Assembly (NCBI RefSeq): GCF_016919245.1 | Contig: NZ_JAFEJA010000001.1 | Span: 5,047,501 to 5,111,500 of the forward strand | DNA from: Streptomyces zhihengii | GTDB taxonomy: Bacteria; Actinomycetota; Actinomycetes; Streptomycetales; Streptomycetaceae | Direction of reading: 5' to 3' | DNA length: 64,000 bases | In this document: in pieces, positions 49,755 to 54,137 of the stretch | Numbering within the stretch: position 1 is the first letter of the stretch | Layout of the letters: every line of letters starts with the position of its first letter | Notes under the pieces: generated by a model | Database searches by the model: none | Told to the model about the DNA's origin: nothing | The model's input: only the letters and a program-made list of their open reading frames with translations | Translations under genes and position numbers: made by a program

Positions 49755-50861
49755 GTGGCAGTCGTCGATGTTTCCGAAGAGCTGAAGTCCCTTTCCTCGA
49801 CCATGGGGTCGATCGAGGCCGTTCTGGACCTCGACAGGATGAGGGCAGACATCGCCGTGCTCGAGGAGCAGGCGGCGGCACCGTCCCTGTGGGACGACCC
49901 CGAGGCGGCGCAGAAGATCACCAGCAAGCTTTCGCACCTCCAGGCCGAGGTCCGCAAGGCCGAGGCCCTGCGCGGCCGGATCGACGACCTCGAGGTGCTC
50001 TTCGAGCTCGCCGAGGCCGAGGACGACCCGGACACCCGCGCCGAGGCCGAGACCGAGTTGGAGGCCGTGCGCAAGGCGCTGGACGAGATGGAGGTCCGCA
50101 CCCTCCTGTCCGGCGAGTACGACGAGCGCGAGGCCCTGGTCAACATCCGCGCCGAGGCCGGCGGCGTCGACGCCGCGGACTTCGCCGAGCAGCTCCAGCG
50201 CATGTACCTGCGCTGGGCCGAGCGCCACGGCTACGGCACCGAGGTCTACGAGACGTCCTACGCGGAGGAGGCCGGCATCAAGTCGACCACCTTCGTGGTG
50301 AAGGCCCCGTACGCCTACGGCACCCTCTCCGTCGAGCAGGGCACCCACCGGCTGGTGCGCATCTCGCCCTTCGACAACCAGGGCCGCCGCCAGACCTCCT
50401 TCGCCGGCGTCGAGATCCTGCCGGTCGTCGAGCAGTCCGACCACGTCGAGATCGACGAGTCCGAACTGCGCGTGGACGTCTACCGTGCCTCCGGCCCGGG
50501 CGGCCAGGGCGTCAACACGACCGACTCCGCGGTCCGCATCACCCACCTCCCGACCGGCATCGTCGTCTCCTGCCAGAACGAGCGCTCCCAGATCCAGAAC
50601 AAGGCCAGCGCGATGAACGTCCTCCAGGCGAAGCTGCTGGAGCGTCAGCGCCAGGAGGAGCGGGCCAGGATGGACGCCCTCAAGGGCGACGGCGGCAGCT
50701 CCTGGGGCAACCAGATGCGTTCGTACGTCCTCCACCCGTACCAGATGGTCAAGGACCTGCGGACGGACTTCGAGGTGGGCAACCCGCAGTCGGTGCTGGA
50801 CGGGGAGATCGACGGCTTCCTTGAAGCCGGAATTCGCTGGCGCAAGCAGCAGGACAAGTAG
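49755..50861 (+). CDS. prfB: Peptide chain release factor 2
   Basis: A 368-residue RF2 that reads UGA and UAA. The stop-codon-recognising SPF tripeptide lies at 204-206 and the catalytic GGQ at 249-251, followed by [15 protein letters not shown]. The GTG start gives [13 protein letters not shown]. The frame is continuous from residue 1, so the autoregulatory +1 frameshift known from E. coli prfB is absent, as in other actinobacteria. It is monocistronic, with a strong terminator 20 bases later. Confidence 0.97.
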
Positions 50862-50915: not shown

Positions 50916-51129
50916 ATGTCACAGTTGCATCCCCGCAGGTCAGGCAACTGACAGCATTTCGGGCATCGCGCCCGCAACGACCTTGACGGTCCTGCGAAAA
51001 CTCGGAAGGGTGACGGGCGGCATGCGTGTTTCCGGGGCGTGTGCGAGCGGGGGAGTCACGACGGATCCGAGCCTGCTGTAGCTCCGGACGCTGCTCCAAT
51101 GACGAGAAGCTACTGGGGGTAGCAGCCAG

Positions 51130-51987
51130 ATGACGAAGAAGACGCGGATTCGCGTCGCGCGTATAGCCGCCGGCGCTGTGATCGCCGCGGGTGCGTCGCT
51201 GACCGCCGCAGGTGCCGCGCAGGCGCTCGACATCAACGTGGGCCCGCTCCAGGTGTCCGCCAACGCCGACGAGAACGGCATCGACGCCGGCATCGGCATC
51301 CAGGGCGACGGCGACCCGGGCGGTGTCGACGGTGGCGCCGATGGTGGTGCTGACGGTGGTGCTGACGGTGGTGCTGACGGCGGTGCCGATGGTGGTGCTG
51401 ACGGTGGTGCTGACGGTGGCGCCGATGGTGGTGCTGACGGTGGCGCCGATGGTGGTGCTGACGGCGGTGCTGACGGCGGTGCTGACGGTGGCGCCGATGG
51501 TGGTGCTGACGGCGGTGCCGACGGCGGTGCCGATGGTGGCGCTGACGGCGGTGCCGACGGCGGTGCTGACGGTGGTGCCGACGGCGGTGCCGATGGTGGC
51601 GCCGATGGTGGTGCTGATGGTGGTGCCGATGGTGGTGCCGATGGTGGTGCTGACGGTGGCGCCGATGGTGGCAACGACAACGGTGGCAACCAGAACGGTG
51701 GCACCGACGGCGGTAACGACAACGGCGGCAACGGCAACGGTGGCGGCAACGGTGGCAACGACACCGACCCCAACGGTGGCGTGATCGACGGTGACGCCGG
51801 CACGGGCACCGACACCGACAGTGCGGGCTCGCAGCCGGTCGAGCAGGGCGAGGCCAAGGAGGAGCTGGCGGAGACCGGCGCCGCCGAGACCACGTTCCTG
51901 CTGCTGGGCGCCGCGACCATGATCGCGGGTGGCATCGGCTTCCGTATGCTGCCGCGCCTCGTGGGTGGCGGACGCACCGTCGCCTGA
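51130..51987 (+). CDS. Secreted GGAD-repeat protein with LAETG sortase signal
   Basis: A 285-residue surface protein. An N-terminal signal peptide (MTKKTRIRVARIAAGAVIAAG, cleavage near Ala32 after AQA) is followed by a 35-residue acidic segment. Then come 28 exact Gly-Gly-Ala-Asp tetrapeptides (residues 68-179), a GGN/GGT-rich stretch, and a sortase signal: LAETG at 246-250, a membrane segment and the final RLVGGGRTVA. LAxTG is the class E sortase motif that anchors chaplins in Streptomyces, so this product is probably cell-wall linked. The repeat is highly acidic and may bind cations. No sortase gene is adjacent. Function is not known. Confidence 0.9.
   Translation: MTKKTRIRVARIAAGAVIAAGASLTAAGAAQALDINVGPLQVSANADENGIDAGIGIQGDGDPGGVDGGADGGADGGADGGADGGADGGADGGADGGADGGADGGADGGADGGADGGADGGADGGADGGADGGADGGADGGADGGADGGADGGADGGADGGADGGADGGADGGADGGADGGNDNGGNQNGGTDGGNDNGGNGNGGGNGGNDTDPNGGVIDGDAGTGTDTDSAGSQPVEQGEAKEELAETGAAETTFLLLGAATMIAGGIGFRMLPRLVGGGRTVA
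51331..51666 (+). repeat. 28 tandem 12-bp units encoding GGAD
   Basis: The 336 bases divide exactly into 28 units of the form GGYGGYGCYGAY. Third positions vary among copies while the amino acids do not, so protein sequence is conserved beyond simple DNA slippage. Runs of identical larger units (for example GGTGGTGCTGACGGT) show repeated duplication. Confidence 0.95.
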
Positions 51988-52007: not shown

Positions 52008-52036
52008 AGGCCCGGGGTGCCGAGCACCCCGGGCCT
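52008..52036 (+). terminator. Terminator after the GGAD-repeat gene
   Basis: AGGCCCGGGGTGC and GCACCCCGGGCCT form a perfect 13-bp stem around CGA, followed by TT. It sits 20 bases after the stop. Confidence 0.85.
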
Positions 52037-52066
52037 TTCCGTGTCCGCAGTTCTCCGCGCCGCGCC

Positions 52067-52249
52067 CTACACGGCCAGCAGCGCCACCGCGGCCACCAGC
52101 AGCACCAGGAGGGCGAGCAGGGCCGCGGGGCTCACACCCGCGAGAGGTCCGTCCTGCTGGAGGCGCTCACGGTTGGCCCGGCAGACCGGGCAGCGGCCCT
52201 CGGCCACAGGTGCCGCGCAGTTCGCGCACACCAGTCGGTCGTAGGTCAT
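52067..52249 (-). CDS. Small membrane protein with two CxxC zinc-ribbon motifs
   Basis: A 60-residue protein starting [18 protein letters not shown]; the GGAGAG ribosome site and ATG at 52249 fix the start within a longer open frame. Two CxxC pairs (CANC at 8-11 and CPVC at 20-23) suggest a zinc ribbon. The C-terminal 20 residues form one hydrophobic helix ([18 protein letters not shown]). The zinc-finger end should be cytoplasmic or the protein tail-anchored. It lies alone between the repeat-protein terminator and ftsE on the opposite strand. Function is unknown. Confidence 0.7.
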
Positions 52250-52497: not shown

Positions 52498-53187
52498 GTG
52501 ATCCGATTCGACAACGTCTCCAAGAGCTACCCCAAGCAGAACCGACCTGCCCTGCGCGACGTCTCCCTCGAAATCGAGAAGGGGGAGTTCGTCTTCCTCG
52601 TGGGGTCGTCCGGTTCCGGCAAGTCGACGTTCCTGCGGCTGCTGCTGCGCGAGGAGCGCGCCAGCCAGGGGTTGGTCCACGTCCTCGGCAAGGACCTGGC
52701 CCGGCTGTCCAACTGGAAGGTGCCCCACATGCGCCGCCAGCTCGGCACCGTCTTCCAGGACTTCCGCCTGCTGCCCAACAAGACCGTCGCGGAGAACGTG
52801 GCGTTCGCCCAGGAGGTCATCGGCAAGCCGCGCGGCGAGATCCGCAAGGCCGTGCCGCAGGTCCTCGACCTCGTCGGCCTCGGCGGCAAGGAGGACCGGA
52901 TGCCCGGTGAGCTCTCCGGTGGTGAGCAGCAGCGGGTGGCCATCGCGCGTGCCTTCGTCAACCGCCCGATGCTGCTGATCGCGGACGAGCCGACGGGCAA
53001 CCTCGACCCGCAGACGTCCGTCGGCATCATGAAGCTGCTCGACCGGATCAACCGCACCGGTACGACCGTGGTGATGGCGACCCACGACCAGAACATCGTC
53101 GACCAGATGCGCAAGCGCGTCATCGAGCTCGAGAAGGGCCGTCTCGTACGCGACCAGGCGCGCGGCGTCTACGGCTACCAGCACTGA
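52498..53187 (+). CDS. ftsE: FtsE, cell division ABC ATPase
   Basis: A 229-residue ATPase with Walker A GSSGSGKS (36-43), signature LSGGEQQ (139-145) and Walker B LLIADEPT (about 159-166). With FtsX it forms the membrane complex that activates peptidoglycan hydrolases at the septum. GTG at 52498 gives the conserved [14 protein letters not shown]; an in-frame ATG at 52456 would add 14 residues. ftsX follows after 32 bases. Confidence 0.96.
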
Positions 53188-53219: not shown

Positions 53220-54137
53220 ATGCGCGCCCAGTTCGTCATGTCGGAGATCGGTGTCGGTCTCCGTCGCAACCTCACGATGACGTTCGCCGTCGTCGTCTCC
53301 GTCGCCCTCTCGCTCGCCCTCTTCGGTGGCGCCCTGCTGATGAACAAGCAGGTGAACACCATGAAGGACTTCTGGTACGACAAGGTCAACGTCTCCATCT
53401 TCCTGTGCAACAAGAACGACGCGGCCACCTCGCCCCAGTGCGCCAAGGGGGCCGTCACGTCGGCGCAGAAGGAGCAGATCCAGGGCGACCTGAAGAAGCT
53501 GGACGTCGTCGACACCGTCCAGCACGAGACGGCGGAGGAGGCGTACAAGCACTACAAGGAGCAGTACGGCGACACCCCCATCGCGTCGACGATCACGCCG
53601 GACCAGATGCAGGAGTCGTTCCGGGTCAAGCTGCACGACCCGGAGAAGTACGAGGTGGTGGCCACCGCGTTCGCCGGCCGTGACGGTGTGCAGTCCGTCC
53701 AGGACCAGCGCGGCATCCTCCAGAACCTCTTCGACCTGATGGAGGGCATGCGGATCGCCGCGCTCTGCGTGATGGGTCTGATGCTGGTGATCGCGATGAT
53801 GCTGATCGTCAACACGGTGCGGGTGTCGGCGTTCAGCCGCCGGCGCGAGACCGGGATCATGCGGCTGGTCGGCGCGTCCAGCTTCTACATCCAGACGCCG
53901 TTCATCGCGGAGGCCGCGTTCGCCGGGCTCCTCGGCGGCGCGCTCGCCTGCGTCATGCTGCTGGGCGGGCGGTACTTCCTGATCGACAACGGCCTGGCGC
54001 TCGCCGAGAAGATGAAGTTGGTCAACTTCATCGGCTGGGACGCCGTGCTGACGCAGCTCCCGCTGATCCTGGCGATCAGCCTGCTGATGCCCGCAGTTGC
54101 GGCTCTGCTCGCGCTGCGCAAGTACCTCAGGGTGTGA
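53220..54137 (+). CDS. ftsX: FtsX, cell division ABC permease
   Basis: A 305-residue permease with the FtsX topology. A cytoplasmic start and first membrane segment (about 20-42) lead to an extracellular domain with paired cysteines (FLCNKND...SPQC, about 61-77). Three further membrane segments follow, the second cytoplasmic region containing SAFSRRRETGIMRLVGAS. In mycobacteria the extracellular domain recruits the RipC hydrolase. It is paired with ftsE and followed by a stem-loop and an S41 protease gene. Confidence 0.96.
   Translation: MRAQFVMSEIGVGLRRNLTMTFAVVVSVALSLALFGGALLMNKQVNTMKDFWYDKVNVSIFLCNKNDAATSPQCAKGAVTSAQKEQIQGDLKKLDVVDTVQHETAEEAYKHYKEQYGDTPIASTITPDQMQESFRVKLHDPEKYEVVATAFAGRDGVQSVQDQRGILQNLFDLMEGMRIAALCVMGLMLVIAMMLIVNTVRVSAFSRRRETGIMRLVGASSFYIQTPFIAEAAFAGLLGGALACVMLLGGRYFLIDNGLALAEKMKLVNFIGWDAVLTQLPLILAISLLMPAVAALLALRKYLRV

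Follow-up and report, generated by a model that had tools for sequence, protein, structure and literature searches.

A predicted sortase-anchored repeat protein encoded beside ftsEX in Streptomyces, with conserved ends, exchanged repeats and a chain length linked to composition

The window analyzed here, a 64,000-nucleotide stretch of Streptomyces zhihengii DNA, contains at positions 51130–51987 of the forward strand an ATG-initiated gene for a predicted secreted LAETG repeat protein of 285 amino acids, which lies between two conserved neighbors on the same strand, prfB, encoding RF2 (49755–50861; Pfam PF03462/PF00472 and synteny), and ftsE (52498–53187; Pfam and synteny), the latter followed by ftsX (53220–54137). 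The precursor begins with a strongly conserved predicted signal peptide (51130–51225, +; residues 1–32, MTKKTRIRVARIAAGAVIAAGASLTAAGAAQA), which was called by reading from a basic n-region, a hydrophobic stretch and an A-x-A motif that also indicates the probable cleavage site. The mature chain would start with residues 33–67 (51226–51330, +; LDINVGPLQVSANADENGIDAGIGI...), a short segment resembled by one in some orthologues (27 of 115 chains fit a loose pattern), and would continue with 28 copies of the tetrapeptide GGAD (51331–51666, +; residues 68–179), a Gly-Asn-rich stretch and acidic linker read from the sequence (51667–51864, +), the class E type sorting motif LAETG (51865–51879, +; residues 246–250), and a strongly conserved hydrophobic membrane segment with an Arg-containing tail (51880–51984, +; ..GAATMIAGGIGFRMLPRLVGGGRTVA). 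Behind the gene, a likely intrinsic terminator hairpin was read from the sequence (52009–52039, +), and a small gene on the opposite strand (52067–52249, −), which encodes a head with CxxC...CxxC and a single hydrophobic segment, lies between the repeat gene and ftsE; it was matched in all 78 named loci. A WhiA target table lists S. venezuelae ftsE/sven2728, and sven2728 may be this small gene.

In the translated open reading frame the 28 GGAD units follow one another without interruption. The sequence-only reading had called these repeats exact, which holds for the protein and not for the DNA: the units comprise 9 distinct 12-mers, and every difference among them is a C/T exchange at a third codon position. 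Departures from the consensus occur in 40 of 112 cells at codon position 3 and in 0 of 224 at positions 1 and 2, which supports the earlier proposal that selection acts on the array at the level of the protein. Tandem Repeats Finder gave the array the highest two scores among its 26 rows for the window (471 at period 36 and 406 at period 12). When 33 arrays of at least eight copies were pooled, positions 1 and 2 differed in 166 of 6434 cells (2.6%) and position 3 in 906 of 3217 (28%), a contrast that is inflated by the preselection of these arrays for a protein purity of at least 95%; some of the 2.6% must reflect swaps between the two Ser codon families, as L044 and L068 are protein-pure yet differ at these positions. 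Copy number varies with the amino acids kept, which the sequence-only reading had named as support for a selected structural repeat; the nearest relative (L002) carries 38 GGAD units.

The earlier proposal of a sortase substrate is upheld as a prediction, of the class E type. The sorting motif of 87 orthologues is LAETG in 83, LADTG in 2, LAKTG in 1 and LAQTG in 1, and the same genome contains two adjacent genes that score 261.6 and 236.2 bits with the class E sortase model NF033747 (cut-off, 160 bits), along with three further matches below this cut-off; cleavage of LAXTG by SrtE is described in PMC5148588. Among 64 named loci, pairwise amino acid identity is 90.2% for residues 1–32 and 86.7% for the 28-residue tail, the regular expression of the search having partly predetermined the tail columns and five non-matching named loci having been inspected singly. 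The corresponding values are 90.6% for prfB, 94.5% for ftsE, 78.2% for ftsX and 88.1% for smpB, so that the conservation of the signal peptide and the tail is similar to that of RF2 and SmpB, whereas the middles have an aligned identity of 36%, as compared with 25% for shuffled middles. Within the signal peptide, identity at third codon positions is no higher than 57.5% in 86 sequences, and the constraint on this segment therefore acts on the protein. A second sorting-like motif (LTDTG, LAGTG or LAQTG) precedes the last one in L005, L025, L029, L067 and L091. Codon 12 (51163–51165) is ATA (Ile) in 46 of 86 orthologue signal peptides; ATA is a rare codon in Streptomyces.

Pfam assigned no family to the window protein at E ≤ 0.001, and its NCBIfam matches were confined to Sdr/Clf adhesins, the best being SdrC at 38.7 bits against a cut-off of 1700, which is put down to low complexity. 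With the known SrtE LAXTG substrates, namely chaplins ChpA–C and the SCO1860 family (NF041527), the protein shares LAETG, a membrane segment, an Arg-containing tail and an SrtE pair in the genome. It differs from them in having neither the SCO1860 nor a Pfam domain, in a mature chain of low-complexity repeats and in a tail more conserved than that of the SCO1860 LAETG family (83.9% versus 71.3% identity in 12 shared genomes). The NF041527 model did not match the window protein at E ≤ 1, the SCO1860 member of the same genome is located elsewhere, and the orthologue P0086 reached 18.6 bits against the NF041527 cut-off of 200. By the sequence features tested, the protein is a predicted class E sortase substrate of no named subfamily found. 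Sdr/Clf adhesins carry a wall-anchored stalk of short acidic repeats in variable copy number, together with N-terminal adhesin domains and an SD unit that is kept; here, in contrast, no head is recognizable and different species have different units. Periscope proteins, as reviewed in PMC9704523, are sortase-anchored proteins with near-identical tandem repeats and length variation, which are defined by individually folding repeats that form rods and typically project a functional domain, whereas here no head is recognizable; the short units rich in Gly, Pro, Thr and Asp and the lack of a Pfam match argue against individual folding of the repeats.

A model covering 61 positions at the C-terminus matched 183 of 199 Streptomyces genomes, and 182 of these 183 gave a single match among the 31 first-look candidates scored per genome; several other LAXTG-type tails are present in the genomes besides this match. 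Across Streptomycetaceae, the model matched 79 of 121 genomes in 13 of 17 genera, some of them weakly, and in other families of the order it matched none of 15 genomes. The order prfB–gene–ftsE was found in all 123 loci with both flanks visible, some genomes being represented twice (18 and 3 further loci showed one flank only); the ftsE neighbor follows partly from the choice of probe in loci collected with ftsX, and 57 of the 123 came via other probes. Of the 78 named Streptomyces loci of the ftsX probe, 73 hold the gene, a piece of it at a contig edge or a broken copy upstream of ftsE. In the other five (L056, L058, L064, L066 and L078) the gene is absent and the prfB–ftsE gap is only 513–597 bp; these loci form a single clade and therefore represent one change on the tree. 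This clade, together with the 16 of 199 genomes without a match, indicates that the gene is dispensable in some species, and on the whole it appears to be a core component of the Streptomycetaceae envelope. The FtsX match is longer in the gene-less L056, L058, L066 and L078 (933–972 nucleotides versus 915 in most; L064 is cut by a contig end), and in L057 and L061 a long FtsX occurs yet the gene is kept.

Upstream of the gene, an alignment of 130 upstream regions revealed two conserved elements, CTTGACG, a likely −35 box (50982–50988, +), and the strongly conserved CTACTGGGGGTAG, which covers the likely ribosome-binding site (51110–51122, +), occurs once in the 9.7-Mb genome and is conserved in other Streptomycetaceae genera as well. 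CTACTGGGGGTAG can fold into a hairpin whose loop contains the likely ribosome-binding site. This 5-bp hairpin, GCUAC[UGGGG]GUAGC, is nearly invariant, the outer pair being G–C in 120, G–U in 7, A–U in 2 and C–C in 1 sequence and the second pair C–G in 126 and C–C in 4. A riboswitch or structured leader was considered and rejected, given these few pair changes and the result from Rfam, where all 12 matches of the leader at E ≤ 10 fell below the gathering score. Identity of the 100 nucleotides upstream in 42 loci is 58.7% for the repeat gene, 64.6% for ftsE, 56.8% for ftsX, 53.4% for smpB and 43.6% for prfB; the value is within the range of the control genes, and no special leader is therefore claimed. 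Since conserved elements of its own precede the gene and a terminator-like hairpin follows it, linkage with ftsEX need not mean co-transcription.

Between species, the repeat unit is usually replaced. A search of complete chains for arrays with periods of 2–14 and at least four copies, some of them imperfect, found 61 distinct consensus units in 77 arrays, and sister loci can carry unrelated units, as in L030 (PGDGGDTPGD) and L075 (EPEEPT), L003 (GGAD) and L005 (DPG), and L010 (TQPTDPGPT) and L023 (TGT). L044 (EGTS) belongs to the same clade as L031 and L038 (GGAD). Among some relatives the unit is kept, such as GGENP in L025, L034, L051 and L052, and GGAD arrays occur in separate clades (the window, L002 and L003; L031 and L038; L076) and also in L081 and L145. 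The arrays clearly turn over fast.

The middles nevertheless keep to certain limits of composition. All 115 distinct complete mature chains have net acidic middles, with an acidic fraction of 4–38% and 2–17% hydrophobic residues, and the number of cysteines is always even (2 in 68 chains, 0 in 31 and 4 in 16); in two overlapping parses of new chains, an even cysteine count and a negative net charge were found in 46 of 46 and 51 of 51. A loop of the form C-x5-8-C lies near the N-terminus in 44 of the 115 chains and a loop further on, often CTVDLDGAEC, in 56; the window protein has no cysteine loop. A folded head domain was looked for and not found, the window protein containing no Pfam domain and the orthologues at most a short cysteine loop or a 25-residue segment.

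Chain length differs between two classes of composition. When the 115 chains were divided at a proline content of 10%, classes and cut-off both having been picked after these chains had been viewed, the 53 Pro-rich chains (P ≥ 10%) had a median length of 158 residues (5–95%, 125–194; range, 121–221) and the 62 Pro-poor chains, rich in Gly, Thr and Asp, a median of 241 (5–95%, 203–309; range, 185–371). On a tree of prfB, ftsE, ftsX and smpB built with a quick method, from which 13 tips were left out (5 gene-less and 8 incomplete), the class changes 16 times. In 12 independent pairs on well-supported branches, an average of 10.2 differed in the same direction, 0 in the opposite direction and 1.8 not at all (median p 0.002), and independent contrasts gave r = −0.78 with opposite signs in 56 of 65. 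A cut of 199.5 residues was set beforehand and applied to fresh orthologues, comprising 60 fetched loci and three earlier ones. Three parses of these 63 loci gave 46, 40 and 51 usable chains, of which 42, 37 and 48 lay on the predicted side; in the union of the 46- and 51-chain parses, which omits three chains identical to earlier ones as well as L209 and L235 for want of an in-frame signal, this was true of 54 of 58 (28 Pro-rich, median 160; 30 Pro-poor, median 228.5). The four rule-breakers are L203, L220, L225 and L226, of which L225 (199 residues) and L226 (139 residues, 9% Pro) are borderline.

The physical size of such chains can be estimated from the relation Rh = 2.16 N^(0.503−0.11 ln(1−fPPII)), equation 6 of PMC4699819. 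Calculated in this way, with propensity values for R, S, T, V, W and Y supplied from outside that source, the predicted hydrodynamic radius has a coefficient of variation of 0.096 as compared with 0.160 when compositions are permuted among chains, a permutation that ignores kinship and gave 0 of 5000 values as low; a version with a charge term, its coefficients likewise from outside that source, pointed in the same direction (0.105 versus 0.207). The correction is partial, since the mean predicted radius still differs by class (37.7 versus 41.9 Å). Within the classes, length showed no relation to predicted stiffness (rho −0.03 and 0.10); therefore, any compensation is between the two classes and not continuous, and the length difference may have a mutational origin.

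We consider it moderately probable that the gene encodes a class-E-sortase-anchored, acidic, disordered spacer that is selected for its physical size and not for its sequence. The precursor would be exported by its signal peptide in a Sec-type manner and inserted into the membrane via its tail, a class E sortase would cut LAETG and join the chain to peptidoglycan, and what is left in the wall would be an unfolded acidic chain with no recognizable folded head, serving as a pliable spacer or brush that lies within the wall or passes through it; the disorder is suggested by composition and the size by the predicted radii. Selection would maintain disorder, acidity, the absence of unpaired cysteine and a certain size of the chain, and the repeat unit, which happens to be GGAD in this species, would be freely replaceable; a similar coil could be made of fewer, stiffer Pro-rich residues or of more, floppier Gly/Thr-rich ones. 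The selected property might be a distance or an exclusion effect. A bolder version, which we put forward tentatively as a sizeable possibility, is that of a sequence-free spacer that has exchanged its whole polymer chemistry many times over, changing between the Pro-rich and the Pro-poor class at least 16 times on the tree, with its length readjusted so that the coil size was roughly kept; the signal peptide and the sortase C-peptide, both of which are cut away, would then be the only long, strictly selected stretches and might act on SrtE or the division machinery. The role of wall spacer proposed by the sequence-only reading is plausible, whereas anything specific to GGAD, to the spacing of Asp or to calcium finds no support.

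A purely mutational account, to which we give a clearly smaller though still serious chance, holds that unequal recombination expands Gly/Thr/Ala units easily and Pro units not, for instance owing to slowed translation, and that the chain is tolerated low-complexity filler with no selection on size. It would accommodate the fast turnover of arrays, the lack of correlation between length and predicted stiffness inside each class and the greater length of Pro-poor arrays (median 117 versus 49 residues), and in both classes larger arrays do go with somewhat greater chain length (167 versus 143 residues in Pro-rich chains and 251.5 versus 221 in Pro-poor chains), which means that size is not tightly held. 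Filler should, however, sometimes be short, and the shortest of the 62 Pro-poor chains has 185 residues with a 5th percentile of 203, the only clearly shorter one in the further set being L226 with its 9% Pro; moreover, the 19 Pro-rich chains with little array (<40 residues) still fall in the narrow range of 121–167. The lengths inside and outside the array are also negatively correlated within each class (r −0.58 and −0.63; 0 of 5000 permutations), which is weak separate evidence because decay of arrays gives the same sign. Selection is further suggested by the acidity common to all chains and by the even number of their cysteines. Drifting low-complexity DNA had been named as the conclusion to be drawn if orthologues without the repeat or with broken frames were found. 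Such copies do exist: there are orthologues in which other repeats stand in place of GGAD, in L013, L073 and L209 the signal peptide and the tail lie in different frames with no sequence gaps, and in L235 an in-frame signal peptide was looked for and was absent. In L073 the length of the ftsX match is likewise no multiple of three, which suggests sequencing errors there. The conclusion itself does not follow, because many arrays are clean at the protein level, all chains examined are net acidic with an even number of cysteines and chain length goes with the class of composition; drifting DNA was rejected on the purity at the protein level and the length relation.

The possibility that the ends are the active parts, with the membrane-left C-peptide (GAATMIAGGIGFR.LPRL) or the signal peptide regulating the sortase, the translocon or FtsEX and the mature chain as a mere carrier, appears unlikely. 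It would fit their RF2- and SmpB-like conservation, a tail more conserved than that of SCO1860 in the same genomes and the single tail-model match in nearly every matching genome (among the candidates scored) despite several other LAXTG-type tails, but it leaves the length–composition link, the acidity and the paired cysteines unexplained and has no known partner, and the terminator-like hairpin and the opposite-strand gene separate ftsE from the gene. We regard as very improbable that GGAD is a specific calcium- or metal-binding or elastic element of the wall, as the sequence-only reading had suggested. The precursor contains 43 Asp and 7 Glu versus 9 Lys/Arg and all orthologues examined are net acidic, yet the orthologous genes at this locus encode TGT, PPVTT, DTP, GGENP, DQGGTG, GSDQ and other repeats, units such as TGT, STGT and PPVTT have no acidic residue, the acidic fraction varies widely and sister species differ. 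The RTX nonapeptide is GGxGxDxUx (Pfam HemolysinCabind); in GGADGGADG an Asp occupies the place of a required Gly and the large hydrophobic residue is missing, and in the absence of an RTX or other Pfam match this reading was rejected.

For the spacer selected for size, the nearest concept is conformational buffering, in which the sequence and length of the adenovirus E1A linker reportedly vary and the dimensions of the chain are kept; the present case differs in that it concerns a bacterial wall protein, its units are replaced wholesale, length differs about 1.5-fold by class and the dimensions are predicted only. A literature search conducted mostly outside subscription journals recognized no study of the repeat-protein family and found no paper on SCO2971 or on signaling by sortase C-peptides; SCO2970 was mentioned once, as one of the genes that sigma-E and BldC probably control, and the main text of an S. 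coelicolor glycoproteome paper contains no LAETG, sortase or SCO1860 and, as its only SCO29xx gene, SCO2963. If the size reading is correct, hundreds of genomes would constitute a natural experiment in polymer physics, in which one spacer has been rebuilt from unrelated repeats and its length re-tuned, and would offer a testable case of selection on the size of a chain rather than on its sequence. The main antibiotic-producing genus would then have a nearly universal envelope protein encoded beside ftsEX, and its orthologues would be available at once as wall-anchored linkers of known length that could be exchanged for one another.

Codons that are very rare in the host are frequent in the GGAD array, where GCT encodes 14 of 28 Ala residues (1 of 215 in five neighboring genes), GAT 12 of 28 Asp (3 of 112) and GGT 41 of 56 Gly (13 of 157). 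A low array GC3 (0.38–0.50) is also seen in L002, L003, L031, L038 and L042, and it is less low in L076 (0.69) and L081 (0.60). Avoidance of mRNA structure was considered as the cause of these rare T-ending codons and is not general, the direction being mixed in eight arrays: relative to random synonymous versions, for which the codon usage of the window genes was applied to all eight arrays including those of other species, predicted mRNA structure is stronger in three (z −4.3, −2.9 and −2.0) and weaker in five, namely four of the GGAD/GGAGAD type (z 1.7 to 3.1) and GSDQ (z 5.8).
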